The notes under the pieces: generated by a model
Told to the model about the DNA's origin: nothing
The model's database searches: none
The model's input: the letters and a program-made list of their open reading frames with translations, nothing else
Source: a virus
Length of the DNA: 40,479 nucleotides
Virus record (IMG/VR): IMGVR_UViG_3300035698_012242
Location: 1-40,479 of that record
Direction: 5' to 3' (one strand)
Program-made: the position numbers and the translations under genes
Shown here: one piece after another, positions 1 through 39,512 of the stretch
Layout: each line of letters begins with the position of its first letter
Numbering within the stretch: the stretch's first letter is position 1

Positions 1-7
1 ATCCGTA

Positions 8-295
8 ATGCTAACAAAAATGAAATGTGAAAATTGTAAAAAAGAACTTAAGAAACAAAATAATAAATATACTGTAAAATCTGGTGAAATAAAGAATTGT
101 TTTTCTCTTGGAAAGTATAATATTAATAATATGGTGGTTTGTGGAGCTTGTTATGCAAGATATAAAGCAAATGGTACTTTTATAAAAATATTTAGAAATA
201 CTTTTAATTCACTTGAAGAAAAATTAAAATTTTATGAATATAAAAGAAAACAAAAAGCAATCCTTAAAAAATATAGAGAAACAATACAAAAATGA
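8..295 (+). CDS. Small zinc-ribbon-like protein, unknown function
   Basis: A 95-residue protein with two CxxC knuckles (CENC at 7-10 and CGAC at 45-48), the usual four-Cys zinc-ribbon spacing, followed by a Lys-rich helical tail. The start at 8 follows the last ten bases of a repeat seen again before 3512 and 4754; an ATG at 20 is an alternative. It overlaps the next gene by ATGA, so the two are translationally coupled. Family not recognised; DNA or RNA binding is only suggested by the zinc ribbon and basic tail. Confidence 0.7.
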   Translation: MLTKMKCENCKKELKKQNNKYTVKSGEIKNCFSLGKYNINNMVVCGACYARYKANGTFIKIFRNTFNSLEEKLKFYEYKRKQKAILKKYRETIQK

Positions 296-480
296 ATGAG
301 ATTAATCGAGAAGATTTATTTGTTGATTGGAGATATAATTATGAAGAAAGATTGATCAGGGAATTTGCTAAGGATAAAGATACAGAATTTTATGATTGGT
401 GTGTTAATAAGTTTAAAGATGAACACCCACCAGAAAAGGATTCAGATGAATTAACAACAATTGTTGAAGATAATTTATAA
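292..480 (+). CDS. Small acidic hypothetical protein
   Basis: A 62-residue acidic protein whose ATG overlaps the upstream stop as ATGA. It has several Trp, Tyr and Asp/Glu residues and no Cys or membrane segment. Position directly before the exonuclease gene suggests the early replication/repair operon. No family recognised. Confidence 0.7.
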   Translation: MNEINREDLFVDWRYNYEERLIREFAKDKDTEFYDWCVNKFKDEHPPEKDSDELTTIVEDNL

Positions 481-493
481 AGGGATTAAAAGA

Positions 494-994
494 ATGAAAC
501 AAACAAAATATTTAGTACTTGATATTGAGACAACAGGACTTAACGCATGGTTCGGTAACAGGATAACTTGTATATGTGCTAAGACAAACACTGGGAAAGA
601 ATTCAAATTAGTACATAAAGATGAAATTGAACTATTATCACAATTTGATGATTGGTGTGAAATAATTAATAAAGATCACATCATTGTAACAAAGAATGGA
701 AAGATGTTTGATATTCCTTTCTTGATGGCTAGGAGTAAGATTAATCATTATGAACCATTAGATATGTTAAATTTATTATATTATAAACATTATGATTTAC
801 AGGAAATTACTAAGAAGAGAGTAAGTCTTGATGATATGGCTACAATCTTAGGATATAATAATAAATTAGGTAGTGGTCTTGATGCCATTATGTGGTGGAA
901 GAAGAAATGTTATCGTAAGCTTAGAGATTATTGTTGGATGGATGTGTTATTAACTGAAAAGATTTACTTACATCTAATGGAGAAGAAAAAATGA
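494..994 (+). CDS. DEDD-family 3'-5' exonuclease (DnaQ/RNase H fold)
   Basis: A 166-residue protein with the three exonuclease motifs in order: ExoI DIE at residues 10-12, ExoII NGKMFD with Asp73, and ExoIII YCWMD with Tyr146 and Asp150 (the YxxxD spacing of DEDDy enzymes). Such proteins remove nucleotides from DNA or RNA 3' ends and often serve as stand-alone proofreading or processing nucleases. I chose the ATG at 494, which follows AAGGGATTAAAAG, over an upstream in-frame ATG at 461 that overlaps the previous gene. No polymerase domain is attached and no polymerase is seen in the window. The stop overlaps the next start (ATGA). Confidence 0.85.
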   Translation: MKQTKYLVLDIETTGLNAWFGNRITCICAKTNTGKEFKLVHKDEIELLSQFDDWCEIINKDHIIVTKNGKMFDIPFLMARSKINHYEPLDMLNLLYYKHYDLQEITKKRVSLDDMATILGYNNKLGSGLDAIMWWKKKCYRKLRDYCWMDVLLTEKIYLHLMEKKK

Positions 995-1145
995 AAATAG
1001 AATCAGATAATATGTCAATTGAAAGTTTAAGAGAAATACTTAAACAAAAAGAATTAAATAAGATAAATGGAGAAGAAAAAATGAAAATAGAATTAGATAA
1101 TATATCAATTGAAAGTTTAAGAGAAATACTTAAACAAAAAGAATT
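976..1145 (+). repeat. Tandem direct duplication, 90-bp period
   Basis: Bases 976-1055 and 1066-1145 match over about 80 bp with two substitutions near the start (C/T and G/A) and one or two at the end. The unit includes AATGGAGAAGAAAAA, the ATG and the first codons of the 991 gene. The high identity implies a recent duplication. Confidence 0.9.
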
Positions 1146-1395
1146 AGATGATAAATCAAAGACTTTTGCAGATGAAATTAAATATTTTCCAGAAAGATTT
1201 GAAAGGTTAACTATTAGAGGTTGGGAAACTATTAATTCATATGAAGGAGTGTCTAATGAGGGTAATTCACTAATATTAAATTCACATTGGAATCATTCAC
1301 AATTAAATGATAAATTATATTATGTAGAGTTTGAAGGAGATGGAAATAAATATAAAGAATTGATTCAAAGAAAGGTAAAGAAAAATGAAAGATAA
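991..1395 (+). CDS. Hypothetical protein with internally duplicated N-terminus
   Basis: A 134-residue protein whose first 30 residues (around MKIESDNMSIESLREILKQK) are repeated almost exactly at residues 31-57. The DNA shows a 90-bp tandem duplication that also copied the ribosome-binding region and the ATG, so translation could begin at 991 or at 1081 (a 104-residue product). The rest is hydrophilic with no recognised domain. It overlaps the exonuclease gene by ATGA and the OB-fold gene by 11 nt. Confidence 0.75.
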   Translation: MKIESDNMSIESLREILKQKELNKINGEEKMKIELDNISIESLREILKQKELDDKSKTFADEIKYFPERFERLTIRGWETINSYEGVSNEGNSLILNSHWNHSQLNDKLYYVEFEGDGNKYKELIQRKVKKNER

Positions 1396-1978
1396 TAATA
1401 AAGGTAAATTTATAAATGGAATGTTCAATGGTAAGATATTAAAGAATCAAGGAACAGGAGCAAGAGGAGAATGGAAACTCTTTCAACTTAAGATTGGAGT
1501 TGAAGATGGTGGAGAAAGATCATTTAATTGTTTCAGTAGTTTAACACCAAAAAGTCCTAAACAAATCAAAGATTTAGAAGAAGGTACATGTTATAACTTT
1601 GGATATAATGAAGAAGAAAAGATGCATGAACAAACACAAGAGACTTATATTGCTAAGACCATATTTTGGATTGCTGAATCTAAAGAAAAGATTGAGAAAG
1701 GTGGTGATGTAACTAATTATGCTAAACCTGAACTTAAAGAGAAACCAAAAGTAGAAGATATCGTACCACCAAAACCTAATCTTGTACATAATCCAATTCC
1801 TGGACCAGTGGTTGGTATGGCTATTAATAATGCTAGAGCAATCTTATTGAATAAACAATTACCAGAGATTACAAAAGAATTAGTATTAGAACAAGCAAGA
1901 AAAGATTATTCTATTAATACTTGGGTAGCTGATGAATTACAAAAGGAAGCAAGAGAATCTAAAAAGAAGGTGGAATAA
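1385..1978 (+). CDS. Probable OB-fold single-stranded DNA-binding protein
   Basis: A 197-residue protein. Residues about 10-105 look like an OB fold: alternating strands, a GNG/GTGARGEW stretch, FQLKIGVEDGGERSFNCF, then a segment about what the complex can do in solution, as in RPA/SSB-type proteins. A Pro-rich linker (about 120-145) leads to a helical C-terminal region (about 146-197). It lies between an exonuclease and small early genes, which fits replication or recombination. The assignment rests on strand pattern and context, not a diagnostic motif, so it is tentative. Confidence 0.5.
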   Translation: MKDNNKGKFINGMFNGKILKNQGTGARGEWKLFQLKIGVEDGGERSFNCFSSLTPKSPKQIKDLEEGTCYNFGYNEEEKMHEQTQETYIAKTIFWIAESKEKIEKGGDVTNYAKPELKEKPKVEDIVPPKPNLVHNPIPGPVVGMAINNARAILLNKQLPEITKELVLEQARKDYSINTWVADELQKEARESKKKVE

Positions 1979-2047
1979 ATGAATAAAAAACAATATAAAT
2001 TATTATGGTTTACTGTACAATCTTGTTTATACCCACTTATAAAATGA
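1979..2047 (+). CDS. Possible 22-residue leader peptide
   Basis: ATG lies directly after the upstream TAA and reads 22 codons (MNKKQYKLLWFTVQ...) to a TGA overlapping the ATG at 2044. It may simply deliver ribosomes to the next gene. Too short to judge alone. Confidence 0.35.
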   Translation: MNKKQYKLLWFTVQSCLYPLIK

Positions 2048-2190
2048 CCAGAACAATACAATTGAATTATTTGGGGAAAGGGATATATCAGATCAAAGTA
2101 GTAACTAAAGGAATTGGTGGAAAACATTCCTCCTCCTATACTTTAAACTTAACAACAGAAGAATTAGAAGTATTAAAAGAACTAATTTAA
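2044..2190 (+). CDS. Small hypothetical protein (48 aa)
   Basis: A 48-residue basic then acidic protein (MTRTIQLNYLGKGIYQIKVV...). I prefer the ATG at 2044 because it forms the ATGA overlap common here; an in-frame ATG at 2005 would add 13 residues but overlaps the short upstream frame. The predicted pattern is a small beta-sheet followed by one helix (TTEELEVLKELI). Function unknown. Confidence 0.55.
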   Translation: MTRTIQLNYLGKGIYQIKVVTKGIGGKHSSSYTLNLTTEELEVLKELI

Positions 2191-2191
2191 A

Positions 2192-2518
2192 ATGGAAGAA
2201 CAACCAACACCTTCAGTAGTATTAGCAGAGAAAACCTATCATAAAGGAGCATTATTTGGTTCATTATCTAATGGTAATCCTTGTTTAGTAGTAGCTAACG
2301 GAATTGCATTAAAGATTATTGCATTGAATGATAAGTTTGTTACAATACAAGTATTACATTATGGTTGTGGTGTTGCTCCAAAAAATCAATCTTGGGTTAA
2401 ATCTAAGAAAGTAATAGTAAAGAAAGAAGTTCAAGTTGTACTTAAACCTAAGAAAGAAGTTACAAAGATTGAAACCAAACCAATAAGAGAACAGAAAGAT
2501 CTATTCGAGGATTTATAA
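2192..2518 (+). CDS. Hypothetical protein with C-terminal QKDLF peptide
   Basis: A 108-residue protein with a beta-rich N-terminal part (about 15-65), a Lys/Val-rich linker and an acidic tail ending QKDLFEDL. QxDLF resembles sliding-clamp-binding peptides (the bacterial consensus is QL[SD]LF); the archaeal PIP box (QxxLxxFF) fits less well. If real, it would recruit the protein to replication forks. The stop shares an A with the next ATG. Family not recognised. Confidence 0.65.
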   Translation: MEEQPTPSVVLAEKTYHKGALFGSLSNGNPCLVVANGIALKIIALNDKFVTIQVLHYGCGVAPKNQSWVKSKKVIVKKEVQVVLKPKKEVTKIETKPIREQKDLFEDL

Positions 2519-2628
2519 TGAAAGTATGCATAAATAAAGAATGTACAGAATATTGGATTCCACAAATTTTTGATGTTTGTTTTAAATGTAAAAATAAAAC
2601 AAGATATATTAAAATGATGAAGGAATAA
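2518..2628 (+). CDS. Tiny zinc-knuckle protein (36 aa)
   Basis: The ATG overlaps the upstream TAA (TAATG). The 36 residues hold CINKEC and CFKC pairs, a compact zinc-binding arrangement, and end KMMKE. One of many such mini zinc proteins in the early region. Confidence 0.55.
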   Translation: MKVCINKECTEYWIPQIFDVCFKCKNKTRYIKMMKE

Positions 2629-2641
2629 GAAGGTGAGATAA

Positions 2642-2908
2642 ATGCAATTAAATAATTATTATTGTTTTAAAGATGATCCATCTGATATTGAAATTGATAT
2701 GGCTATTAATCAAGATAGTTTAGATGACATTGTTAGGTTGAAAGATAGAGATGCAGTTGAAGAATATGAAAATGTTAAACTTGGTACTATGTATAAGTAT
2801 GGTTGGAATCAAATGGATTATTCAATAAATTTAACACATTATCAATCTAAATATAATAAGTTAATAAAAGCAAAATACTCTAATCATTTATATGATACAA
2901 AACAATGA
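2642..2908 (+). CDS. Hypothetical acidic protein (88 aa)
   Basis: Starts 6 nt after AAGGTGAG, a good GGTGA-type ribosome-binding site. The 88-residue product is rich in Asp, Asn and Tyr, has no Cys cluster or membrane segment, and matches no family I know. A spacer carrying a hairpin leader separates it from the methyltransferase gene. Confidence 0.65.
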   Translation: MQLNNYYCFKDDPSDIEIDMAINQDSLDDIVRLKDRDAVEEYENVKLGTMYKYGWNQMDYSINLTHYQSKYNKLIKAKYSNHLYDTKQ

Positions 2909-2939
2909 TTTAAGGGAATAGGTGTATATAAAAAATATA

Positions 2940-2998
2940 TTATACGAACTTTTCCAAAAGGAAAAGCAAGAATACATTTAACAGGATAAATGGAGAAG
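2940..2998 (+). repeat. Hairpin leader repeat, copy 1 (upstream of methyltransferase)
   Basis: TTATACGAA, then a perfect 7-bp hairpin CTTTTCC-AAAA-GGAAAAG (2949-2966), then CAAGAATACATTTAACAGG and ATAAATGGAGAAG, which supplies the GGAG ribosome-binding site for the ATG at 3002. A near-identical block precedes the gene at 3625. Confidence 0.8.
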
Positions 2999-3001
2999 AG
3001 A

Positions 3002-3478
3002 ATGAAAGCAAATAATGGAAAAGGAAACACCATTTTAAGAGATATGTGGGAAACTCCACAAGAATTATTTGATACACTAAATAAACAATATACCTTTCAA
3101 TTAGATTGTTGTGCAACAAAAGAAAATACTAAATGTTTAAAGTGGTTTGAAGATTTTTTGAATAATAAACCTAACTATAAAGCCTATATCTATATGTGTT
3201 GGATGAATCCCCCTTTTAGTATTGCTTGGAAAATGTTTGATCATTTTTTTAAAACAATTAGAAAAGGAGTTGCTATTTATCGTTGTGATAATTTAGAAAC
3301 TGGATTATGGCAAAAAATAATAATGCCTAATGCATCTTGGATATTTATACCAAACAAAAGGATTCCATATGAAGGATTAGATGGGGACGGTGCTAGATTT
3401 GCATCTGCATTAATTGGTTTTAATGTTAATATACCTAAAAATATTAATGGAACAATTTTATATTTAAAAAAGAATTAA
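3002..3478 (+). CDS. DNA N6-adenine methyltransferase (phage Dam-like)
   Basis: A 158-residue protein with the layout of the phage DNA N-6-adenine-methyltransferase family: an opening WETPQELFDTL (16-26), FQLDCCAT (32-39), the catalytic NPPF (69-72), then a WIFIPNKRIPYEG segment. It should transfer methyl groups from S-adenosylmethionine to adenine in DNA, typically to protect viral DNA from restriction or to mark it. I chose ATG 3002 because GGAGAAG lies just before it; an in-frame ATG at 2990 precedes that site. It is preceded by the hairpin leader repeat and followed by the TTCGTATAA repeat. Confidence 0.85.
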   Translation: MKANNGKGNTILRDMWETPQELFDTLNKQYTFQLDCCATKENTKCLKWFEDFLNNKPNYKAYIYMCWMNPPFSIAWKMFDHFFKTIRKGVAIYRCDNLETGLWQKIIMPNASWIFIPNKRIPYEGLDGDGARFASALIGFNVNIPKNINGTILYLKKN

Positions 3479-3514
3479 GACAGTAAAAAGATTATTCGTA
3501 TAATATCCGTTATG
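3476..3514 (+). repeat. TATTCGTATAA repeat, copy 1
   Basis: Starts at the methyltransferase stop (TAAGACAGT...) and ends at an ATG (...TATCCGTTATG). It closely matches 4718-4756 after the RNA ligase stop. Each holds two tandem 11-bp half units, TATTCGTATAA then TATYCGTWATG. Confidence 0.75.
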
Positions 3515-3556
3515 TCGAACAAACACCCCATAAAAGTTTATTCGCATAACTCTTAA

Positions 3557-3614
3557 TTATACGAACTTTTCCAAAAGGAAAAACAAGAATACATTTAACG
3601 AGATAAATGGAGAA
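3557..3614 (+). repeat. Hairpin leader repeat, copy 2
   Basis: TTATACGAA plus hairpin CTTTTCC-AAAA-GGAAAAA (3566-3583), then CAAGAATACATTTAACGAG and ATAAATGGAGAA. It differs from copy 1 at only a few bases over about 57 bp and again supplies the ribosome-binding site of the next gene. Confidence 0.8.
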
Positions 3615-3624
3615 AAAAAATAGA

Positions 3625-3816
3625 ATGATAACTGTAACAATAAACATTAATGGAAGTCCAATATATACAAGAAGTGCAGTAAATAAAAGTACTTTAACTG
3701 ACAATGAACCAAATATCTATGAAGTAGATGAGGGTTCAACATTATGTCATATCCCAAAGAAAGGAGCAGTTGAACTTGCTAAAAAGATGTTAGATACAAT
3801 TAAAGAAATTAAATAA
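3625..3816 (+). CDS. Small hypothetical protein (63 aa)
   Basis: I chose the ATG at 3625, 10 nt after GGAGAA, giving MITVTININGSPIYTRSAVN; an in-frame ATG at 3607 overlaps that site. The product is beta-rich at the N-terminus and ends in an amphipathic helix (AVELAKKMLDTIKEIK). It shares its hairpin leader with the methyltransferase gene, so the two are probably co-regulated. Function unknown. Confidence 0.6.
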   Translation: MITVTININGSPIYTRSAVNKSTLTDNEPNIYEVDEGSTLCHIPKKGAVELAKKMLDTIKEIK

Positions 3817-3827
3817 TGGAGAAAAGA

Positions 3828-3977
3828 ATGGTTCAAGATGTATATTGCCCAATGTGTAAAAAAATTTTTGATATAGGGGATACTGTAGCAATAGACCAAA
3901 ATGGAAATGAAGGGTGTAATATTTGTAGTTATAAAAATAAAAAAGAATCATCATTTGTTCCGTTATTACCAATATGA
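3828..3977 (+). CDS. Small zinc-ribbon protein (49 aa)
   Basis: MVQDVYCPMCKKIFDIGD... with CPMC near the start and CNIC about 20 residues later, a canonical four-Cys zinc ribbon. GGAGA precedes ATG 3828 by 5 nt; an in-frame ATG at 3816 would add MEKR. Function unknown. Confidence 0.6.
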   Translation: MVQDVYCPMCKKIFDIGDTVAIDQNGNEGCNICSYKNKKESSFVPLLPI

Positions 3978-4002
3978 AATAATTAAAAAATAATAAGAGA
4001 AG

Positions 4003-4026
4003 ACATTTCAAGGGATAAATTGAGGA
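4003..4026 (+). repeat. Degenerate partial leader repeat before RNA ligase
   Basis: ACATTTCAAGGGATAAATTGAGGA resembles the 3' half of the hairpin leaders (ACATTTAACAGGATAAATGGAGAA) but lacks the hairpin. It lies just before the start at 4034. Confidence 0.45.
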
Positions 4027-4033
4027 ATTAACA

Positions 4034-4720
4034 ATGGAAGAAAAAGAAATAAATGATTTTACAAAATATGGAAAATTTAATAGTCCGTTCAAAAAAGATG
4101 ATAATTTTATTAATACTGTGATATTATCACAAAAATTACCTGTTGGTAGATGGATTAAGACTGAAAAGATAGATGGAACAAATATAAGGATAATTCTTAC
4201 AAAACCTAATGGTGAATCTAATAGAGAAATTCTTATTGGATCAAGAAAATTAATACTAAATACTAAAGATAAAAGTTCTAAACAATATTTAGATTGTTTA
4301 AAAGAAATTAATCTTCATAAAATAAAAGAATATTTTAAAGATATTAATTCTACGGTAATTATTTATGGGGAGGGATATGGTGCAGGAGTTCAGAAAGGTG
4401 GAATATATTCTAAGAATAAGAATTTTAGAGTATTTGATATAAGAATTGGTGAAGCTTACCAAGATTGGGAATATATTGAAAAGATATGTGTAGATAACCA
4501 ATTAAATATAGTTCCCGTTATTGGAGAAATAAGTTCAATAAGTTATGGTGAATGTTATACTTCATTATTATCATTTAAAGAAACAATGATTCAAAATGAA
4601 GAAGGAACTAAAGGAAAACCAGAAGGATTAGTCTATAAATTTGACCCAGTTTTATTAAATAAATATAAAGAAAGACTAATATTTAAAATTAAAATTAAAG
4701 ATTTTAAAGAGGTTCAATAA
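4034..4720 (+). CDS. RNA ligase, T4 Rnl2-like
   Basis: A 228-residue covalent nucleotidyltransferase. Motif I is EKIDGTN with Lys45 as the likely AMP acceptor; YGEGYGAGVQKGG and FRVFDIRIG match motif III of Rnl2-type ligases; EGLVYKF is motif IV and IFKIKIKDF motif V. These enzymes seal nicks or breaks in RNA using ATP; in phages they often repair tRNAs cut by host anticodon nucleases. There is no obvious C-terminal OB or helical extension of the larger DNA ligases. It stands between repeat-bearing leaders, suggesting its own control. Confidence 0.8.
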   Translation: MEEKEINDFTKYGKFNSPFKKDDNFINTVILSQKLPVGRWIKTEKIDGTNIRIILTKPNGESNREILIGSRKLILNTKDKSSKQYLDCLKEINLHKIKEYFKDINSTVIIYGEGYGAGVQKGGIYSKNKNFRVFDIRIGEAYQDWEYIEKICVDNQLNIVPVIGEISSISYGECYTSLLSFKETMIQNEEGTKGKPEGLVYKFDPVLLNKYKERLIFKIKIKDFKEVQ

Positions 4721-4756
4721 GACAATTAAAAGGCTATTCGTATAATATTCGTAATG
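4718..4756 (+). repeat. TATTCGTATAA repeat, copy 2
   Basis: TAAGACAATTAAAAGGCTA then TTCGTATAA (4737-4745) and TATTCGTAATG, whose ATG opens the next gene. It is about 85% identical by eye to 3476-3514. Bases 1-10 (ATCCGTAATG) look like the end of a third copy cut by the window edge. Confidence 0.7.
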
Positions 4757-4897
4757 GAAAATATAATGCAATTTAATCATAAATGTGGTAAATGTAATAA
4801 CACAATGCAATGTATAGTTTGTAGTTGTGGATATAAGAATGTACTTGGTGAAGTATTAGTTAAGAATAAAAAGGTGATGATAATTGAAGAGAACTAA
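4754..4897 (+). CDS. Small Cys-rich zinc protein (47 aa)
   Basis: The ATG is the last codon of the TATTCGTA repeat. The product has CGKC, then CIVC and CSCG, a five-Cys zinc-binding region, followed by a short beta-rich tail. No ribosome-binding site is visible, so the repeat may act as a promoter or leader with a very short 5' end. Function unknown. Confidence 0.55.
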   Translation: MENIMQFNHKCGKCNNTMQCIVCSCGYKNVLGEVLVKNKKVMIIEEN

Positions 4898-5000
4898 AGA
4901 ACAATGGATTAGATTATTAAAAGGTCAAATTGATAGTGTAGAAAGAGGATTCTTAACAGTAAAACAATCTGAAGCATCAGTTAAGGTACTTGTCGAATGA
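4884..5000 (+). CDS. Small hypothetical protein, TTG start (38 aa)
   Basis: AAGGTGATGATAA precedes TTG 4884, a good GGTGA-type site. The frame encodes 38 residues (KRTKEQWIRLLKGQIDSV...) and its TGA overlaps the helicase ATG as ATGA, so it likely couples translation into the helicase. It looks like one helical hairpin. Confidence 0.5.
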   Translation: MKRTKEQWIRLLKGQIDSVERGFLTVKQSEASVKVLVE

Positions 5001-7126
5001 ATAAGCAAAGGTTTCATTTTAATGTGTGGTCAGCATTTAATGATAAAGCATATGGTAAAACTCTTAATCAGAAACATCTATTTGATGATGGAAGAATACA
5101 TTATCAAAATGAATTACATGAAATAACTAAATATGGTAGAGGGTATTTTGAATTTCCAACAAATGAAGATAGATATTACATCAAGTTAGTTTCAGGTAAC
5201 AAATATTACATATTACCCAGAAAGTATATTAAACAATTACCAATCAAACCTTTAACTACACATGATGTTCACATGAAAGCTGGAGATACACAGATTTGGA
5301 AGTATATTTCAGATTGTGAACCTCTTAACCTAACACCACAACAAACAATGTCATTAAGAGAATTGGTTATCATAATTAATCCAATCACACATTCAAACGA
5401 AATGGGGTGGGAGATTCTTAAAATGATAGCATTATCTGTTGGTATTAAACTAGGTGTATGTGGAATGATTGGTTGTGTTGATAAAAATACTGAATACTTT
5501 AATGGTACAAAGTGGGTTAAGATAAGTGAATATAAAAAAGGTGATAATGTTTTACAATATAATCTTGAGGGTATAGCAGAATTAGTTAAACCATTAAAAT
5601 ATATTAAAGAACCTTGTGATAAGATGTATAAGTTTAAAACTAAATATGGTTTAGATCAATGTTTATCCCCAGAACATAGAGTTTTATATTTATCTAAAAG
5701 AGATAATCCAATGGAAATATCTTGTGAAGAAATGGTTAAAAGGCACAATGAATCTAAGATTGGATTTTCTGGCAAGGTGATTACTTCATTTAAGATGAAA
5801 CATAAAACATTTTTAAATATGTCTTTAGTAGAAATAAGATTAATGGTTGCAGTAATAGCAGATGGAACATTTCCAGATCAAAGTAATAATACTATTGTTA
5901 GACTAAAAAAAGAATGTAAAAAAGAAAGGTTAGTTAAATTACTTGATGAAGCAAACATAAAATATAAGAAATGTGATTATAAAGATGGTTATTCACACAT
6001 TAAATTTAGATCACCATTAAGATTAAAACATTTTGATGAATTATTTTATAATTGTTGTGAATGGCAATTAGAAGAGATTGGTAAAGAAGTATTATTATGG
6101 GATGGAGATGGTAAAAAAAGATATTTTACTACAAATAAAGAATCAGCAGATTTTGTTCAATATTGTTTTACTTGTTTAGGTTACAGGGCTAGTCTAACAA
6201 CTTGTGACAGAAGAGGACAAAAAAGAGGTAAATATGTAAGGAAATCTATTGATTATACTGTTCATATAACTGATAGAAATAAAGTATCAATGGCTGTTAA
6301 TGGAAATAAGAATATTATTGAAGAAGTAAAACCTGATGATGGATATAAATATTGTTTTAGTGTTCCTTCAAGTTATCTAGTATTAAGAAGAAATAATAAA
6401 ATATTTGTAACAGGTAATAGTGGAAAGAACTCTACATCTACAATATTAAGGCAAATATTAGAGAACATAGCACCAAAAGTTAAACATCCAACAATGGCTA
6501 AGTTTTACACAACACTATTGTTTAATGATTACATTAACATTGATGAATTAACTTCATGGAAGAATGCTGAAGTACAAATAATTGAAGATTTAACTGCTGA
6601 GTTTGGTGATGAAGCTCCTGACATGGATAAGTTTAGTAAGGATAAGAACAGGAGTTATGAAAAGATTAGTAACATTGCATCCAAATCTTTAACTTTTACA
6701 TTCAATCCACCAACACAAGATCATCCTTATGTATTCAAAGAGAAATTTAAAAATGCTGATAAGATACTTGATAGGTTTCCTTTATTATATATTGAAGGGC
6801 AAATAACTGAATCAATTAAAAGACCTAACAGTGCTGAAGCTAAAGTATTAATGACAGATAACTTTGTTGATATGGTGAAAATAGCAAGAGCAGTAAGTTA
6901 TTATAGACAACCTGATAATCTACAGAAACATTTACATCATTGGAACAGAGATCAGTGTGGGTTTGTAAGGAGACATTTGAGTAACATTAGTGGACTGTTG
7001 GATGTGATTGATGTGTTTTGTAATAGCCAATCTGAGTATGATAGTTATTTGATATACTTGAATAAAGCATCTGAGGATTATAGGAATTTAAATCAAGACA
7101 TGGATAAGTTTCAGGTTAAAGAATAA
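4997..7126 (+). CDS. Intein-containing P-loop ATPase, putative replicative helicase
   Basis: A 709-residue precursor. Residues 1-159 and 475-709 form the extein (394 residues after splicing). Joining them restores a Walker A GMIG-SGKNS; Walker B is INIDEL shortly after, SLTFTFNP fits sensor 1, and DRFPLL fits an arginine-finger region, so the fold is probably AAA+ or SF3-like. It sits directly upstream of the primase, so I infer a helicase-primase pair. The N-terminal about 130 residues match nothing I know. The ATG overlaps the upstream stop. Exact helicase class is uncertain; a packaging or regulatory ATPase is less likely given the context. Confidence 0.75.
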   Translation: MNKQRFHFNVWSAFNDKAYGKTLNQKHLFDDGRIHYQNELHEITKYGRGYFEFPTNEDRYYIKLVSGNKYYILPRKYIKQLPIKPLTTHDVHMKAGDTQIWKYISDCEPLNLTPQQTMSLRELVIIINPITHSNEMGWEILKMIALSVGIKLGVCGMIGCVDKNTEYFNGTKWVKISEYKKGDNVLQYNLEGIAELVKPLKYIKEPCDKMYKFKTKYGLDQCLSPEHRVLYLSKRDNPMEISCEEMVKRHNESKIGFSGKVITSFKMKHKTFLNMSLVEIRLMVAVIADGTFPDQSNNTIVRLKKECKKERLVKLLDEANIKYKKCDYKDGYSHIKFRSPLRLKHFDELFYNCCEWQLEEIGKEVLLWDGDGKKRYFTTNKESADFVQYCFTCLGYRASLTTCDRRGQKRGKYVRKSIDYTVHITDRNKVSMAVNGNKNIIEEVKPDDGYKYCFSVPSSYLVLRRNNKIFVTGNSGKNSTSTILRQILENIAPKVKHPTMAKFYTTLLFNDYINIDELTSWKNAEVQIIEDLTAEFGDEAPDMDKFSKDKNRSYEKISNIASKSLTFTFNPPTQDHPYVFKEKFKNADKILDRFPLLYIEGQITESIKRPNSAEAKVLMTDNFVDMVKIARAVSYYRQPDNLQKHLHHWNRDQCGFVRRHLSNISGLLDVIDVFCNSQSEYDSYLIYLNKASEDYRNLNQDMDKFQVKE
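5474..6418 (+). mobile_element. Intein with degenerate LAGLIDADG homing endonuclease
   Basis: Residues 160-474 of the ATPase. It starts with Cys160 (CVDKNTEYFNGTKWVKISEY, block A) and has a block B SPEHRVL with His227. Endonuclease-like motifs are IRLMVAVIADG (280-290) and EVLLWDGDG (364-372). It ends SYLVLRRNNKIFVTGN before Ser475. The penultimate residue is Gly rather than the usual His. The insertion lies inside the Walker A loop, a favoured intein site because only exact removal restores the ATPase. Confidence 0.85.
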
Positions 7127-7137
7127 GAGGTAATAGA

Positions 7138-7764
7138 ATGAGCGAATCAGATGATTCATTGTTTTACATTTACAATCAATTAGGTTACAGAGATTTAGAA
7201 TTAGCTACACAATATAAAGATAAAGAAGGTTGTTGGCAGTGGGGAAAGAGGGCTAAGTATGAAGAGGTTATGAGTTATTCACCTTCCTCAGCAGTACCTT
7301 CGATTTATCCTCTCCGTAGAACTGCTATACAATTCATGACAGATGTTAAACATAGATCAATAGCAGATGTAGAATTAATGATAGATATAGATGACCTATT
7401 AGTAAAGACTGGTGAGAAAGATTATCAATTTACATATCATGAATTTGATACAGTTGATGATAAGTTAGATTGGATCTTAACTAAATTAATAAGGAAAGGT
7501 TTAAAGCATCCAAACTTACATCCTAGTTATTGGTTATCTCACGTTAAACCTAGATCTGTATATTGGTCAGGTAATAAAGGTTATCATATATCTATAATTG
7601 TACCCTTCCTTAGATTATTAAACAAGAGGGATAGGTGTATGTTAAAACATTATTGGTTAGATGAACTTGGTGGAGATAACCAGAAAGATTATGATGGTGC
7701 ATTGATCTCTTTGGAAGGTAAGCCACATAGGAAAACAGGTAAATTAAAACGGAGGATAAAATGA
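7138..7764 (+). CDS. Archaeo-eukaryotic primase (PriS-like), small form
   Basis: A 208-residue protein with the AEP signature: catalytic MIDIDD (Asp83, Asp85), YWSGNKGYHISI at 142-153 (the sGxxGxH motif, His150), and a third-motif region DYDGALISLEGKPHRKTGKL (184-203). AEPs make RNA or DNA primers. It is at the short end for the family, with no zinc stem or C-terminal helical domain visible. AGAGGTAAT precedes the ATG. It follows the helicase-like gene by 11 nt and its stop overlaps the next ATG, so helicase, primase and the next gene are one translation unit. Confidence 0.8.
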   Translation: MSESDDSLFYIYNQLGYRDLELATQYKDKEGCWQWGKRAKYEEVMSYSPSSAVPSIYPLRRTAIQFMTDVKHRSIADVELMIDIDDLLVKTGEKDYQFTYHEFDTVDDKLDWILTKLIRKGLKHPNLHPSYWLSHVKPRSVYWSGNKGYHISIIVPFLRLLNKRDRCMLKHYWLDELGGDNQKDYDGALISLEGKPHRKTGKLKRRIK

Positions 7765-7958
7765 TAAGTATAACAAAACCAAAGAATTGGATAAGTAAAA
7801 AATTAATGAAATATTTAAAATATGAAATAATTGTAAAACCAGAACCAATCCAAATAAAACAATTAATGAAAGCTATTAATATTATGACATCTGACAGTGA
7901 TATGTTAAATAGAATCCAAAGAGCATCTGATGAAATTCATAATGAAGAAAAATGGTGA
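7761..7958 (+). CDS. Chimeric small protein carrying a copied neck-protein helix
   Basis: A 65-residue protein coupled to the primase by ATGA. Residues 1-40 are basic and unique. Residues 42-60 (MTSDSDMLNRIQRASDEI plus His) are identical to residues 107-124 of the neck/connector protein encoded at 22676-23767. The DNA is identical over 58 bp (7882-7939) in the same reading frame. The copy looks recent. Function unknown; it could be a dominant partner or competitor of the neck protein, or a recombination by-product. Confidence 0.65.
   Translation: MISITKPKNWISKKLMKYLKYEIIVKPEPIQIKQLMKAINIMTSDSDMLNRIQRASDEIHNEEKW
7882..7939 (+). repeat. 58-bp exact repeat, early-gene copy
   Basis: Identical to the reverse complement of 23394-23451 inside the neck protein gene. 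It runs from TTATGACATCTG to GATGAAATTCA with no mismatch, and sequence similarity ends abruptly on both sides. Confidence 0.95.
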
Positions 7959-8073
7959 AAAACCAGATTATTTATTATTCAAAAACAATCTAGTTTATGT
8001 TATAAATACAAATAATTATAAAGTTAAAATACCAAAAACAGATTATGGTAATTGGATAGGTTCAATTTGTTAA
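7942..8073 (+). CDS. Small hypothetical protein (43 aa)
   Basis: Begins just after the 58-bp repeat and overlaps the previous gene by 17 nt. It encodes MKKNGEKPDYLLFKNNLVYV..., mostly beta-prone, ending GNWIGSIC. No family recognised. Confidence 0.5.
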   Translation: MKKNGEKPDYLLFKNNLVYVINTNNYKVKIPKTDYGNWIGSIC

Positions 8074-8074
8074 T

Positions 8075-8194
8075 ATGAAAGAGACATATTGTAGAGATTG
8101 TGGTGAGTTAGTAGAGAAGGAGTTACATGAACTATTATTCTGTCCAGAATGTAATTGTTTTATGTATCTTGTTAATAAGAAAGAAATTAGTTGA
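8075..8194 (+). CDS. Small zinc-ribbon protein (39 aa)
   Basis: MKETYCRDCGELVEKELHEL... has CRDC and CPEC about 17 residues apart plus one further Cys, a rubredoxin-knuckle zinc ribbon. It starts 1 nt after the upstream stop. Its 3' half overlaps the frame at 8127. Confidence 0.55.
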   Translation: MKETYCRDCGELVEKELHELLFCPECNCFMYLVNKKEIS

Positions 8195-8354
8195 TTTAAG
8201 GGATGAATCTATCAAATGGATTAAAGAACTATTAAATGGTTCTAATATTAGTTGGACTGAAGAACACCCTTTTTATACTTATAGACATGATGTTTATCCA
8301 ATTGCTGATTTCTTAAAAGAAGTATTTAGTATAACTGAAGAGGAATTAGAATAA
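8127..8354 (+). CDS. Hypothetical protein (75 aa), start uncertain
   Basis: AAGGAG at 8117-8122 lies 4 nt before ATG 8127, but that start overlaps the zinc-ribbon gene by 68 nt in another frame. A TTG at 8169 would avoid part of this. The region from about residue 20 (KLVDLRDESIKWIKELLNGS...) is a clear hydrophilic coding stretch ending in an acidic helix. Function unknown. Confidence 0.5.
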   Translation: MNYYSVQNVIVLCILLIRKKLVDLRDESIKWIKELLNGSNISWTEEHPFYTYRHDVYPIADFLKEVFSITEEELE

Positions 8355-8415
8355 AATGTGGGATGAAAGAGGAATCTTTATAATAATATTAGCACATCAA
8401 GACAGGTGATAAAAT

Positions 8416-8703
8416 ATGCATAAAGCTAAACCAGAACCAGATGTATTAGATCATATATTATACTTGGTTAGATATTATCAAGATACCAATAACATAGGAG
8501 TTGTTGAATCAATACTTAATAACACTTGTTTACCTTACATTGGTAATGCGAATAGTATTGAATACAAATGTATAGATTATGAAATGAAGTTACCAGATAG
8601 ATGTAATATGACACAATATAAGACATTACTACAACAATCATTTGAAGATGCATATAAGTTAGGAATGTTTAGTCCAGATTTAGAAAGAGTTGGTAAAAGA
8701 TGA
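8416..8703 (+). CDS. Hypothetical protein (95 aa)
   Basis: Starts after AGGTGATAAAAT, a GGTGA-type site. The 95 residues appear mostly helical, with a DHILYLVRYYQD helix near the N-terminus. The stop overlaps the next ATG. No recognised domain. Confidence 0.65.
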   Translation: MHKAKPEPDVLDHILYLVRYYQDTNNIGVVESILNNTCLPYIGNANSIEYKCIDYEMKLPDRCNMTQYKTLLQQSFEDAYKLGMFSPDLERVGKR

Positions 8704-8840
8704 ATGAAAGATTAAAGGGAAAAGTTGAAGAATATACTGATAAAAAACTTGCAGAAGAAATAAGATATATATCTAATGGACCATATATTGAACTGTTAAG
8801 GAATGAAGCTATTGCAAGAATATTAATGAAGGAGATTTAA
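8700..8840 (+). CDS. Small helical hypothetical protein (46 aa)
   Basis: ATGA-coupled to the upstream gene. The 46-residue product (MNERLKGKVEEYTDKKLAEE...) is almost wholly helical and charged. Function unknown. Confidence 0.55.
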   Translation: MNERLKGKVEEYTDKKLAEEIRYISNGPYIELLRNEAIARILMKEI

Positions 8841-8841
8841 A

Positions 8842-8913
8842 ATGTGTATGTATAAAGATTCAATACCTTGTGATCAATGTCCAGACAGAGGTGATTGTGA
8901 TGAATATGATTGA
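8842..8913 (+). CDS. Very short Cys-rich peptide (23 aa)
   Basis: MCMYKDSIPCDQCPDRGDCD encodes a CDQC pair plus a third Cys close by. It overlaps the next gene by 14 nt. It could be a mini metal-binding peptide or a leader; it is small enough to be chance. Confidence 0.35.
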   Translation: MCMYKDSIPCDQCPDRGDCDEYD

Positions 8914-9025
8914 AGATCCATTCGTATGTAAAGGTTGTGGGAAAAGGAGAGATTGTGATGAGTTTCCAATATGTAATTCTTGTGGATATGATGATAAGGT
9001 AAATGATGAACGTAACAATATATAA
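8900..9025 (+). CDS. Small zinc-ribbon protein (41 aa)
   Basis: GAGGTGAT lies 4 nt before ATG 8900. The product has CKGC and CNSC spaced as a zinc ribbon, plus one Cys between them. It overlaps the next gene. Function unknown. Confidence 0.55.
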   Translation: MNMIEDPFVCKGCGKRRDCDEFPICNSCGYDDKVNDERNNI

Positions 9026-9284
9026 AAGACAAGAGTTTCAATTTAATGGTATGATACATTCAGCTAAGTGTAGAACTAAAGGTTGGTGTGATAATGATGC
9101 TTGTGGTAGGAAACAAGTAATATTTGAAAAGTTTAGAATGAAAAAGATTAAAGGTCGAATATATCCTAAGAGAATATCATTATTTAAATGTATGATCTGT
9201 AAACGTAGACATAAGAAGATTGGACCTAATAAGTTTAAATTAACAAATAAAAGAAAAAGGTTAACCAAAGTAGAAATACAATAA
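9003..9284 (+). CDS. Basic zinc-finger protein (93 aa)
   Basis: Two adjacent ATGs (9003 and 9006) follow AAGGTAA. The protein has Cys pairs at CRTKGWC, the following DACG, and CMIC, and a Lys/Arg-rich C-terminal half (KRRHKKIGPNKFKL...), so nucleic-acid binding is likely. It is the last gene of the left plus-strand block, facing the late block. Confidence 0.6.
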   Translation: MMNVTIYKRQEFQFNGMIHSAKCRTKGWCDNDACGRKQVIFEKFRMKKIKGRIYPKRISLFKCMICKRRHKKIGPNKFKLTNKRKRLTKVEIQ

Positions 9285-19799: not shown

Positions 19800-20651
19800 T
19801 TATTTTATTCTCCGTCCATCCAATGTCTTACGCACTGGTTTCTCTTCTTTAACTTGTTCTTTATCTTGTTCAAGTTTTTCTATTCTTTCTTTTAAAATAA
19901 TTAATTCCTGTTCAATATGTTCGTTTCCTAAAGGAATTAAACCCATATAAAAATCAATTAAAAATTTAAGAGTTAGACCCATTTCTCCTGAAAAGTCTTT
20001 ATTACTAAATTCTATAAATCTATTTAAAGTTTTTTCAGGAACATGTTTAATTATAAATCCTTTATTTTCAATTAATAATTTTGAATATCCTTTTTCATGT
20101 ATCAAATGACAAGATTTACAAAAAGTAATTAAATTATCTAATGAATTATTTTTACTAATTCTATAAGGGATTATGTGATGAACTTGATCCCCTTCTTTTT
20201 CACATCTTTGACAAATATTATTATCTCGTTTTAATGCTTTTAATCTTTGTTCTTTCCAATCACTACCAAGATATTTGTTAGTTCCACCTATCCAATTTAA
20301 ATTTAATTCTCCTTTTTTAAATTCTGTTGATTTAGACAAATGTTTTCCTTTATTTATAACTTGCCAATATCTTTTCCATTGTGGATTACTAGAGTTTTTA
20401 TTTCCTTCACTAATCCTTTTTTTATGTTCATTACATTTATACATACATGTTTTACTACAATAATTATATTCATTAACTTTAGATTTACTTTTAATAAATG
20501 AAATATCACAATAATCACATTTAACTTCTATAGATTTATCTTTATAATAACAAACTTTTGAACAATATAATGAATCTTCAAGATATTTCCAAACTTGATA
20601 ATTATTACCACAATATTTACATTCTTTAGTTATTTTTGCTTTTATTGTCAT
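19800..20651 (-). CDS. HNH homing endonuclease with zinc knuckles and a C-terminal target-like domain
   Basis: A 283-residue protein. Residues 10-73 hold several Cys pairs (CKYC, CSKVC, CDYC, CSKTC), probably zinc fingers for DNA binding. The HNH core is at about 131-190: CQRC, then VHHI with His158/His159, Asn173, CKSC and His182. Residues 199-240 (HVPEKTLNRFIEFSNKDF...) resemble residues 12-50 of the gene just upstream, followed by a coiled coil (about 245-275). It sits between tail tube and chaperone genes, where it is not needed for the virion, so I read it as a free-standing mobile nuclease. Confidence 0.75.
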   Translation of the reverse strand: MTIKAKITKECKYCGNNYQVWKYLEDSLYCSKVCYYKDKSIEVKCDYCDISFIKSKSKVNEYNYCSKTCMYKCNEHKKRISEGNKNSSNPQWKRYWQVINKGKHLSKSTEFKKGELNLNWIGGTNKYLGSDWKEQRLKALKRDNNICQRCEKEGDQVHHIIPYRISKNNSLDNLITFCKSCHLIHEKGYSKLLIENKGFIIKHVPEKTLNRFIEFSNKDFSGEMGLTLKFLIDFYMGLIPLGNEHIEQELIILKERIEKLEQDKEQVKEEKPVRKTLDGRRIK

Positions 20652-22675: not shown

Positions 22676-23767
22676 TTATAATCCATCAATGTTACGATGC
22701 ATGTTACCTTTGATTATCTTTTCTATTTCATCTAAGATACTCTTTTGTGCAGTAGGATTAAAACCATCCCTACCATCTGGTAATGCTTTAGCAATTCCTG
22801 ATAATGTTAAATCATAAGCTGCTTTTAATATACATAATCTTTGTATCTCTGAAGGTACAGCATTAGTACCATATTTATATGTAATTCTGATTCTATTGAA
22901 TATTGTATTATTTGGAAAGTTACCAATAGCTAATTCATCTAGGATATTATTATCTGTATGCATTAACTGAACTTCACCAGTCTTTGAATCTACATCATAA
23001 TCTGATCTAAATGTTAATTGTTTATATGTTGGTACACTACCTTGTGCTGAACTACTTGTTTCAACTACCATGTTAATCATCCAATCATTGTCTGAATGTA
23101 CAATAGCAGTTGTATCTAATGCTCCCCTTGTAACTGTTAAAGTTGTTGTATTATCAACAGATACTATGGTAATACTTTCACCACCAATTGAAATAATATC
23201 ATCAGCATATAATCCTGTTGTACTATCTAATTCTATACTAGTAGCTACAACTGTTAAATCTGATGTTAATTGTGTTTTAATTACTTGAATGTCATTATAT
23301 CTTGGTTGGTAAACTTTATCAAAACTACCTCTACCAGATTGTTCTTCTCTTTGAACTAAAGTTAAAGTTCCATATTGTTTACCAGTATCATCTTGAATTT
23401 CATCAGATGCTCTTTGGATTCTATTTAACATATCACTGTCAGATGTCATAAGACTACTTTTATATTCTGCATAAACATTATCTGTTCCAACAGCAGTAGA
23501 TGCCATTACAATCTTACCATTATCTAAATTGATAGTGTAATCTGTAGTTTCAGTTAATGATGTTAAATCAATGTTATTTGCTCCTTTTGATAATGTTAAA
23601 GTATTATCTATGATAAATCTATTATCTAAGAATATAGCTGAACCTACACCTAAACTACCAGTTGCATCAACTTCTTCTGGAGTTGTAGTATCTGGATAAT
23701 TTGGTATTTCATTTACACATCTTAAGTAATTGAATACATCTAAAGTATTAACATATTGAGCAGTCAT
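22676..23767 (-). CDS. Neck / head-tail connector protein
   Basis: A 363-residue protein. The N-terminal and C-terminal thirds are helical in the manner of gp6/gp15-type connectors: MTSDSDMLNRIQRASDEIQD near 107-126 and LCILKAAYDLTLSGIAKALP near the end. Between them is an inserted beta-rich region (about 165-250), for example SITIVSVDNTTTLTVTRGAL. The gene follows head genes and precedes the tail terminator. The 18-residue helix at 107-124 is duplicated in the early gene at 7761-7958. Confidence 0.6.
   Translation of the reverse strand: MTAQYVNTLDVFNYLRCVNEIPNYPDTTTPEEVDATGSLGVGSAIFLDNRFIIDNTLTLSKGANNIDLTSLTETTDYTINLDNGKIVMASTAVGTDNVYAEYKSSLMTSDSDMLNRIQRASDEIQDDTGKQYGTLTLVQREEQSGRGSFDKVYQPRYNDIQVIKTQLTSDLTVVATSIELDSTTGLYADDIISIGGESITIVSVDNTTTLTVTRGALDTTAIVHSDNDWMINMVVETSSSAQGSVPTYKQLTFRSDYDVDSKTGEVQLMHTDNNILDELAIGNFPNNTIFNRIRITYKYGTNAVPSEIQRLCILKAAYDLTLSGIAKALPDGRDGFNPTAQKSILDEIEKIIKGNMHRNIDGL
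23394..23451 (-). repeat. 58-bp exact repeat, neck-gene copy
   Basis: Read on the minus strand it equals 7882-7939 on the plus strand, so the two copies are inverted relative to each other and 15.5 kb apart. Both encode the same residues in frame. This copy lies within a longer conserved-looking helix, so it is the likely donor. Confidence 0.95.
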
Positions 23768-24471: not shown

Positions 24472-24759
24472 TTAACTGAATGTACCAGTAACGCATACTT
24501 CAGCTACTCCTACATCAATAATTGTTATTGTTGTAGTTGACCATGTTGGACTAGTTCCAACTACTCCATCTTCTGTTACAGAATTAATTCCTTCTATATC
24601 AGCAAGACCAGAAACGTAAGTTGCTAAATCAATAGTATTACTTCCACCACCGTCAACAGTTCCTCTTATAAATATTCTAGCCCTTCTCTTTCCAGTTCCG
24701 TATGTTACAGTTCCAGGTATATCTTCTACAGTTATTTCTGTAGGTGTGATTGCAGTCAT
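24472..24759 (-). CDS. Probable capsid decoration protein, paralogue B
   Basis: A 95-residue beta-rich protein starting MTAITPTEITVEDIPGTVTY and ending VCVTGTFS. It is about 60% identical by eye to the gene at 24784-25074. GGAGGAAAG precedes the ATG. Position just downstream of the capsid gene suggests a decoration or cement protein on the capsid surface. Confidence 0.65.
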   Translation of the reverse strand: MTAITPTEITVEDIPGTVTYGTGKRRARIFIRGTVDGGGSNTIDLATYVSGLADIEGINSVTEDGVVGTSPTWSTTTITIIDVGVAEVCVTGTFS

Positions 24760-24783
24760 TTTAAACTTTCCTCCTTATTTTAT

Positions 24784-25074
24784 TTAATTAAATGTTCCAA
24801 TAACACATACTTCACATAATGTGGATGTGTCAAATACTGTGATTGTTGTTGTTGACCAAGTAGGTGTACTTGATGCAGCAGCTCCGTCATCTGTAACGTA
24901 TTCTACTCCTTCAATGTCAGCTAATCCTGGTACATAAGTTGCTAATGCAAAAGATCCACCATTAGCAATAACAGTTCCACTCATGTAAATTCTAGCTCTT
25001 CTTTTACCTGTTCCACTTGTTACGTTTCCAGGTATGTCCTCAACAGTTATTTCTGTTGGTGTAATTGCAGTCAT
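24784..25074 (-). CDS. Probable capsid decoration protein, paralogue A
   Basis: A 96-residue protein (MTAITPTEITVEDIPGNVTS... ending CEVCVIGTFN). I chose ATG 25074 because GGAGGAAATTAAA lies just before it; an in-frame ATG at 25089 overlaps that site. Conserved stretches shared with paralogue B are TAITPTEITVEDIPG, GKRRARI, GLADIEG and TPTWSTTTIT. The two are a recent tandem duplication that has begun to diverge. Confidence 0.65.
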   Translation of the reverse strand: MTAITPTEITVEDIPGNVTSGTGKRRARIYMSGTVIANGGSFALATYVPGLADIEGVEYVTDDGAAASSTPTWSTTTITVFDTSTLCEVCVIGTFN

Positions 25075-25105
25075 TTTAATTTCCTCCATTATTATTTAAT
25101 TGTTT

Positions 25106-25142: not shown

Positions 25143-27197
25143 TTAACTTGTTTCGTTACCGTAAATCTGTACCATTCTTCTAGGTGCTAAGTTATAGGTA
25201 GCGAAATAGGTTTTAATGAATCCTTTTTGACTATCTCCATCTTTACCTAACATTTCTAAAGTTGGTGGTACCCAAATTGCAATCTTGTGAGTTTCTAAGT
25301 CTACTAAAAACCAATCATCACTATTACAATCTTTATCTTCAAAGATAGGTATTCCGTCAAAAGATGGTCTACCTTCAAATCCTACTCTTGTACTTGTTGG
25401 TACTAATCTTTGAGCTGAATCATAAATCCCTCTGAACTTATCTCCTTGAACAAAACTTGTAATGAATACACAATTTTCAAGATTAGCTCCTTCAGTTCCT
25501 ACAGCTTTTCTTTTTGCAGCTCTAAGATTTGATAAAGTAATATCTGCACTTGAACCATTGATATAATTATCAGCAGTTGTAGTTGATGCTAATCCATTAG
25601 CTTGTGTTCTTAAAACATTATATAATGTATTATTACCAGCTTGATCAGAAATATATTCAAATCCAATGATTCCAGCAGCAGTTTCAAGTCCAACTTCAGC
25701 AAATAAAGCAAGATTCATAACAGACATTAAATCGTCAGTTGAATCTCTAACTTCTAAACTAAATACATCACCTACACTTGAACCTCTGTTAGCAGCAATC
25801 ATATCTCCATCTACTTCAACACCAGCTTGATATTTCTTAAACTTTGTCATATACTTGATTCTTGTAACATCTCCAGTAGTAACTGCATTACCTAAGTAAG
25901 CACTAGCAGAAGTGTTAGCTGCAATCTTTAATCTAAATTGTACTTGATTGTTACCTTTATTACTGAAATCTTCTTTCATTAATAAATTCCATGATGTAGT
26001 CTTTTGATTTAAAATGTTAAAGATTACAGGTTGAAATATATCATCTAATTCAGCACCAGCTAGTAAATAGTCTGTGTCTGTATTTTGATTTGATGTGATT
26101 CCTAATTTAGATTCCATAATACATTTTGAACCAATTTGTTTAATCTCAAAATCATAAGATTTATTAAATACATCTTTAGTTTTAAGTTCTCCTGCAAATA
26201 ATTCTTTAGATTCACCAAGTTTTGTAGCAATCTTTAATTGATTACCAATTGATAATTCTTTTGAATCTTCTACCATTGATTTAAAATCTTTAAGTTCTTT
26301 ACTTTCTTGTACTTTTCCTGCATCAGTGTTAAGTTGTGTTTTTGTTTCAACTTTTACTTCTTTCAGTTCTTTCTTAAGATCTGCAAGAATTGAATCTTTT
26401 AGTTCCTTTAATTCATTTTCCTTAATCATTTTTTCTTTATTCTCCTTAGCTTCCTTTCCTAATGAAATTAATTCTTTTTCTTCTTCAGTCTTTTCAACTG
26501 GTTTTTCTTCTACTTTAATTTCTTCTTTAGAAATATCTTCCTTTTTAATTTCTTCTTCTGTTTTTGTTTCCATTTCAGAAACCTCCTTAATTTTAATATC
26601 TTTAGCTTTAATCTCTTTTATCATTACTGCATGTTCGTTCATTGGTTGACTAGCTAATGTCCAACCATCTAATTGTGATCCTGGTAATAATGTTCTGTAA
26701 ATACAATTTCCTTTCTCTTCTTCTGTTACTGCACCATCCAAATATTCCATAGTTTCTGGATCTCTAGTTGTAAATTCTATTGAATATGCATCAATTAAAC
26801 CAGATTCAACTCTATACTTAACATTATCAAATGTTTCTTTAGTTTTATCTAATAATGTATCAACATAAAGTCCATATTCACCATCTTCTAATTGGTCAAC
26901 TTTAGCTGTACCTTTTATTCCTACACCTGTTACATGTGGTTCTCTTTCATGATTAACTGAGACTTTGTTAGCTCTTGGATCGCCTTTATTTATTAAATCT
27001 GCCCAAGTATCTAATGTTTCTTTACAAACTTTATCTTTAACATACATATCTCTTGTTTCGTCATAAAATCCTTGATCTAAATGTGTAGTAGAAATATATC
27101 CACCTCTTATAAATTCACCAGAATCAGATTCTTTAATCTCATAACCGAATACTTTAGAAAATAGTTTTTCTTTTTTATTCTTTGATTTATCCTTCAT
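25143..27197 (-). CDS. Prohead protease - scaffold - major capsid protein fusion (HK97 fold)
   Basis: A 684-residue polyprotein from ATG 27197 (an in-frame ATG at 27212 adds MWNYK). Residues 1-200 are an HK97-type maturation protease: SVNHE with His83 and AYSIEF with Ser139 in the expected order. Residues about 205-330 are a Glu/Lys coiled coil, like a scaffolding delta domain. From about 340, the major capsid protein: TDYLLAGAELDDIFQPVIFN, KKYQAGVEVDGDMIAANRGS, and a late capsid domain ending RRMVQIYGNETS. Such fusions occur in some tailed viruses; the protease must free the capsid part during maturation. Confidence 0.8.
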   Translation of the reverse strand: MKDKSKNKKEKLFSKVFGYEIKESDSGEFIRGGYISTTHLDQGFYDETRDMYVKDKVCKETLDTWADLINKGDPRANKVSVNHEREPHVTGVGIKGTAKVDQLEDGEYGLYVDTLLDKTKETFDNVKYRVESGLIDAYSIEFTTRDPETMEYLDGAVTEEEKGNCIYRTLLPGSQLDGWTLASQPMNEHAVMIKEIKAKDIKIKEVSEMETKTEEEIKKEDISKEEIKVEEKPVEKTEEEKELISLGKEAKENKEKMIKENELKELKDSILADLKKELKEVKVETKTQLNTDAGKVQESKELKDFKSMVEDSKELSIGNQLKIATKLGESKELFAGELKTKDVFNKSYDFEIKQIGSKCIMESKLGITSNQNTDTDYLLAGAELDDIFQPVIFNILNQKTTSWNLLMKEDFSNKGNNQVQFRLKIAANTSASAYLGNAVTTGDVTRIKYMTKFKKYQAGVEVDGDMIAANRGSSVGDVFSLEVRDSTDDLMSVMNLALFAEVGLETAAGIIGFEYISDQAGNNTLYNVLRTQANGLASTTTADNYINGSSADITLSNLRAAKRKAVGTEGANLENCVFITSFVQGDKFRGIYDSAQRLVPTSTRVGFEGRPSFDGIPIFEDKDCNSDDWFLVDLETHKIAIWVPPTLEMLGKDGDSQKGFIKTYFATYNLAPRRMVQIYGNETS

Positions 27198-27251
27198 TTT
27201 ATAGTTCCACATGCAATTTAAGGTATATACCTAAGCTTCTAGTGGAACTAC

Positions 27252-33764: not shown

Positions 33765-34293
33765 CTTTTATCACTTTTGCATCAATTATCACTTCTCGTA
33801 ACCTATCCATTGGATTCTGGTGAGTAATGTTAATCTCTTTTGGTGTTTCACGATTTAATTGCTGTTCATCTAATTTACATAACTCTTTCCAAGTTAAATT
33901 CCAATCATTATGGAACTTTCTTAACTGATCTTCCTTTAATCGTAAAGTAGAAGCATTCTCGTCTGGATCTTGTTTTAATTTAGCTATTTCTTTATCTAAT
34001 ATCTGAATGTAATGTAAAATCTGTCTCTGTCTCCTGTCACCAAGAGATTTGTTAATGTCTAACCTTAATTGTGACATAGTAGGTTTCTTACCGAGAGGAT
34101 AGGGTGGGATTAAGTTAAGTAACCAATCCTTACGTTTTTGACAAATCATGTCTGGATGAAAAGTAAATATAACTTTCTCTGAATCAAACCTTTCACAATA
34201 GGTATATTTCCATTCACAATCTAAACAACCAAATTGACCTATCAAATATTTCTTAGGTAAATCTTCCTCTTTAATTATTATTTCTTTATCCAT
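33742..34293 (-). CDS. Probable terminase small subunit or terminase-linked protein
   Basis: From ATG 34293, which overlaps the GIY-YIG stop (TAATG), a 183-residue protein. Residues 20-60 hold FGCLDCEWKYTYCERF and a later MICQKRKDW, possibly a metal site; the rest is a long helical, charged region (LRLDINKSLGDRRQRQILHY; LRLKEDQLRKFHNDWN), as in DNA-binding small terminases. Position directly before the large subunit supports this. There is no clear helix-turn-helix. Confidence 0.5.
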   Translation of the reverse strand: MDKEIIIKEEDLPKKYLIGQFGCLDCEWKYTYCERFDSEKVIFTFHPDMICQKRKDWLLNLIPPYPLGKKPTMSQLRLDINKSLGDRRQRQILHYIQILDKEIAKLKQDPDENASTLRLKEDQLRKFHNDWNLTWKELCKLDEQQLNRETPKEINITHQNPMDRLREVIIDAKVIKDDKETNN

Positions 34294-37137: not shown

Positions 37138-37141
37138 TAAA

Positions 37142-37520: not shown

Positions 37521-37522
37521 AA

Positions 37523-38030: not shown

Positions 38031-38042
38031 AGAGGTTAAAGA

Positions 38043-38317: not shown

Positions 38318-38353
38318 TAATGATGGATAAAGGAATGGAGATATTTTGAATAT

Positions 38354-38664: not shown

Positions 38665-38665
38665 A

Positions 38666-39504: not shown

Positions 39505-39512
39505 GTGTTAAA

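Follow-up and report, generated by a model that had tools for sequence, protein, structure and literature searches.

A 58-bp inverted copy of a late structural gene within an early gene of a probable archaeal tailed virus: likely scar of a templated insertion

The genome of the tailed virus recorded as IMGVR_UViG_3300035698_012242 carries one short segment twice, in inverted orientation and without a single mismatch, once in a late structural gene and once near the end of a small early gene 15.5 kb away. The early copy is, with a probability of roughly 0.8 judged from the sequence, the scar of a templated insertion that recently carried sequence from the structural gene (23767–22676) into the early gene. 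The window analyzed is the whole record of 40,479 bases; the features of the two loci are collected in Table 1.

Table 1. Features of the early and late loci that share the 58-bp segment.
Feature	Position	Strand	Remarks
Upstream early gene, 208 aa	7138..7764	+	primase by motif only; overlaps 65-aa ORF by ATGA
65-aa early ORF	7761..7958	+	41 native codons, copied segment, HNEEKW and stop
58-bp exact inverted copy of 23394–23451	7882..7939	+	probable templated insertion within early gene
47-aa ORF	7930..8073	+	no convincing ribosome site; probable cut-off C-terminal part of an original 84-aa gene
TAATGA, target-side microhomology	7940..7945	+	comparison with donor segment ends
Late structural gene, 363 aa, donor	22676..23767	-	head–tail adaptor ("neck")-like by position; gene order, weak alignment
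Donor copy of 58-bp segment	23394..23451	-	residues 107–124 of 363-aa structural protein

The 58-bp inverted repeat

By direct sequence comparison, the early copy equals the reverse complement of the late copy at 58 of 58 positions, precisely where the initial annotation had placed the match. A repeat search recovers the same pair at 94% identity over 69 nt, with the mismatches confined to the outer 11 nt. No other inverted exact repeat of the record comes near it in length, the next one measuring 20 nt. In order-3 Markov simulations of the window (n = 30), the longest inverted exact repeat averages 17 nt and reaches at most 20 nt, as opposed to 58 nt observed, which excludes chance. In addition, 1.51 Mb of other fetched viral and host loci contain no inverted exact repeat of at least 30 nt with arms more than 1 kb apart.

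The annotated common reading frame holds as well, both copies being read in frame as MTSDSDMLNRIQRASDEI. This peptide could be encoded by about 4.3e8 different DNA sequences, yet the two copies are identical in DNA; hence, they share recent DNA descent rather than reflecting protein convergence. The absence of differences (0/58) bounds their divergence only to below about 5%. As an RNA element, the segment gives no Rfam match and no stable fold (z of 1.7). An antisense role was rejected too, since the segment has the same sense in both mRNAs and pairing between them is therefore impossible.

The virus and its genome

The genome has a GC content of 28%. Its early genes are located on the plus strand (1–9284 and 36571–40202) and its late genes on the minus strand (35132–9359). 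The terminase is nearest to that of Halogranum tailed virus 1 (HGTV-1), with 31% identity, and its best matches in a prokaryote genome collection are loci of Bathyarchaeota and Lokiarchaeota. The virus is, thus, probably an archaeal tailed virus. All of these relatives are only about 30% identical. The only other related gene of the HGTV-1, Bathyarchaeota, and Lokiarchaeota loci is a tail gene.

Searches of viral contigs, genome contigs, and annotated phage proteins, collections from which near records are possibly absent, returned no relative with either repeat locus. The 65-aa ORF, the putative 84-aa ORF, and the structural, upstream, helicase, portal, and capsid genes have no relatives in the collections searched for each. 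For the structural gene, a search at E values up to 10 gave weak matches only, all outside the copied segment, and 398 genomes from the phylum of one Bathyarchaeota locus gave no match.

Several other features of the genome can be described. In a helicase-type protein (4997–7126, plus strand), an intein-like insert splits the P-loop (GMIG / CVDKN...VTGN / SGKNST). A PHROG match of this product, "PhoH-like," spans residues 121 to 483 and, given this coverage, is probably due to the intein rather than to the host protein. The element TTATACGAA occurs in five copies and both orientations, in early regions only (2940, 3557, and 39917 on the plus strand; 3495 and 4737 on the minus strand). Three of the five copies are followed by a AACTTTTC-type palindrome with AAAAGG, and the repeats are possibly an operator or early promoter element. 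Free-standing endonuclease genes are found on the minus strand, one of the HNH type inside the tail module (19800–20651) and one of the GIY-YIG type (SegE-like, 34293–34853). Two adjoining paralogous small late genes (24472–25089, minus strand) are about 83% identical over 110 nt. Finally, a 689-aa ORF (25143–27212, minus strand) is a probable fusion of prohead protease and major capsid protein; herein, a weak SU10-type capsid match covers the C-terminal part only, and the protease part is assigned from its position.

The late structural gene

The late copy lies in a gene located between the capsid gene and genes of the tail-completion type, which is the usual place of head–tail adaptors. A tail-type domain match covers residues 147 to 228 of its product. 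A multiple alignment, albeit a weak one, pairs the copied segment with the first helix of several proteins: the annotated adaptor of Thermus phage Riverbug and the products of position-matched genes in HGTV-1 and a Bathyarchaeota locus. Gene order and alignment thus speak for the "neck gene" of the initial annotation, which family searches do not confirm: the protein has no Pfam match. The label as a head–tail adaptor is kept tentative, because the profile comparison with adaptors is not significant and the single-sequence structure model is worthless (pLDDT of 32).

The early locus

The 65-aa ORF is preceded by a GGAGG Shine–Dalgarno site 5 nt before its ATG (7761). Its described coupling to a primase is borne out as far as the ATGA overlap with the upstream gene is concerned, but the primase label is not, that gene having no family match in searches including Pfam. 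The copy was also said to end the 65-residue protein; it lies near the C terminus, but is followed by HNEEKW and the stop codon. It enters the ORF in frame, which has a 1-in-3 chance, and exits out of frame, so that a stop follows after six codons.

Downstream, the apparent start of the 47-aa ORF (7930) falls within the copied segment. Neither of its two candidate starts has a convincing Shine–Dalgarno site, the best match being the four bases TGAT at the second. Upstream of the copy, the early sequence is coding in one frame (19 bits, as opposed to −25 and −125 for the other two), and downstream of it in a different one (12 bits, as opposed to −45 and −48). When exactly these 58 bp (3n+1) are left out, the beginning of the 65-aa ORF runs on into the 47-aa ORF in a single frame of 84 codons without a stop, a restoration that has a 1-in-3 chance anyway. 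This arrangement would be explained most simply by a single 84-codon early gene that the insertion interrupted: as 58 is not a multiple of three, the original gene would have been divided into the 65-aa ORF and a 47-aa remnant. The empty site is inferred rather than observed, since no relative carrying either locus was found.

Direction of copying

The direction of copying was assessed with a codon model that contrasts late with early genes and whose training set contained neither of the two genes. Here, the segment scores +0.20 bit per codon toward late genes and has a GC content of 31%. It is embedded in early-like sequence, which scores −0.15 bit per codon before and −0.07 after the copy, with GC contents of 19% and 21%. 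The donor gene is late-like on both sides of the segment (+0.25 and +0.17 bit per codon). Over 18 codons the difference in codon usage is small, amounting to 3.7 bits, and is reached by 1.4% of early windows when the training set includes the donor gene. Late-like codon usage and GC content between early-like flanks indicate that copying likely ran from the structural gene to the early gene. Each of the four flanks has the codon signature of the gene block in which it now lies; hence, the present orientation is the native one.

Junctions and proposed mechanism

The junctions carry short matches. The TAATGA following the early copy agrees at five of six positions with the first six bases of the donor segment (TTATGA) and at four of six with the six bases just beyond the end of the donor segment (AGATGA). 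Jointly, such matches arise with a chance of 0.0009 (0.09%) in phase-matched random early/late pairs, although they are imperfect and were tested post hoc.

A templated insertion would proceed as follows. While DNA is being replicated or a break repaired, a growing end at the early gene probably switches to the structural gene 15.5 kb off, guided by a short ATGA-containing match. There, 58 bases would be copied, after which the end would return to its original site at the second ATGA-containing match. The outcome would be an inverted duplicate of the structural-gene segment within the early region, with the donor left intact. The original 84-codon gene would thereby become the 65-aa ORF with a borrowed C-terminal helix, in addition to the untranslated or poorly translated 47-aa remnant. 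The chemistry of the switch and a lack of function of the product are presumptive parts of this scheme.

The same early region contains other recent short duplications, namely an 81-bp tandem match of 97.5% near 976–1146 and a 59-bp match of 95% at 2939/3556. The former belongs to a recent in-frame tandem duplication of 90 bp within a small early gene (950–1146, plus strand).

Template switching of the FoSTeS/MMBIR type is known to generate templated insertions in primate genomes (PMC5120786, PMC7954356), with a median length of 12 nt and a maximum of 128 nt (PMC7954356). The viral copy resembles these insertions in being a short, exact, inverted copy of a distant stretch that lies between microhomologies while the donor stays intact. 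It differs in that it occurs in a tailed virus, and the donor is 15.5 kb away as opposed to the short-range switches of PMC7954356. Quasipalindrome-associated template-switch mutation (PMC7202029) and protein innovation by template switching (PMC8604942) likewise alter coding sequence by copying between inverted sequences. However, those systems act between nearby imperfect inverted repeats, whereas here no prior repeat beyond a few bases is seen.

Alternative explanations

The initial annotation offered four options, of which recent ectopic conversion comes nearest to the reading preferred here; the data fit a templated insertion and not the conversion of pre-existing homology. That an older homologous early segment was converted, or that the early gene was copied into the structural gene, is highly improbable. 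The flank matches (94% over 69 nt) could be worn remains of a longer homology, but mismatches are found in the outer 11 nt only. The segment fits the composition of the structural gene, and its exact removal restores a continuous early ORF, for which reason templated insertion is favored over conversion. Reverse copying would, moreover, leave a hole in the structural gene at the position that aligns, albeit weakly, with adaptor helices. An assembly or amplification artefact has to be considered for any metagenome-derived virus contig such as this one, and is unlikely. A chimera would join unlike flanks; here, early flanks meet early and late meet late, gene order and codon usage are undisturbed at each of the four sides, and both arms lie within otherwise intact gene blocks. 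A spurious 58-base insert between natural flanks would require two independent switches, and the repeat is shorter than one typical read.

A programmed inversion, in which the arms recombine, 15.5 kb are flipped, and chimeric genes arise, fits the geometry: the arms are inverted and exact, and both products would be open in frame (298 and 130 aa), as had been claimed. The flip would nevertheless shorten the donor protein from 363 to 130 aa, attach the other 239 residues to the early gene, and place the tail module at a distance from the head module. The codon signatures place all four flanks where they are now found, the segment has neither a structured site nor an unusual fold (z above 0), and no invertase, integrase, or other site-specific recombinase occurs among the ORFs scanned, a set comprising some but not all of the small ORFs. 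Phage invertible segments are exemplified by the G-segment of Mu with Gin and the C-segment of P1 with Cin. Like these, the viral repeat has exact arms in inverted orientation that lie within coding sequence and could exchange gene ends. Unlike these segments, it comes with no recombinase found and no crossover-site anatomy, and its flip breaks the structural gene rather than exchanging alternative ends. The inversion option is, thus, unsupported and very improbable.

Rather than being a scar, the early copy could be a captured functional helix, with the early protein binding the partner of the neck, for instance to time assembly or to exclude another virus. This, too, is improbable. The copy enters in frame, and a single-sequence model of low to moderate confidence predicts a helix at residues 46 to 64, i.e. 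the copied part; however, one entry in three would be in frame by chance, and the out-of-frame exit appears to destroy the original C terminus. The zero differences indicate recency, not selection (0/58 bounds divergence below about 5%); conservation is seen in no relatives, and there is no sign of selection for the helix. Slightly less probable still is the specific proposal that the early protein has just gained the neck helix of its own virus by one copying event and uses it to bind the neck partner. If true, self-copying would here have given birth to a new gene, observed while divergence is still no more than a few percent.

Implications

The finding by itself opens no long-standing question. 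The early copy is probably a mutational scar of recent date rather than a genetic switch, which calls for caution: an exact repeat common to two reading frames does not imply a switch. The genome, that of a tailed virus with mostly archaeal nearest terminase relatives, offers a clean case of a self-copy that is short, exact, and inverted. In addition, this case illustrates how a small early gene can be broken, and a foreign C terminus attached to it, in one event.
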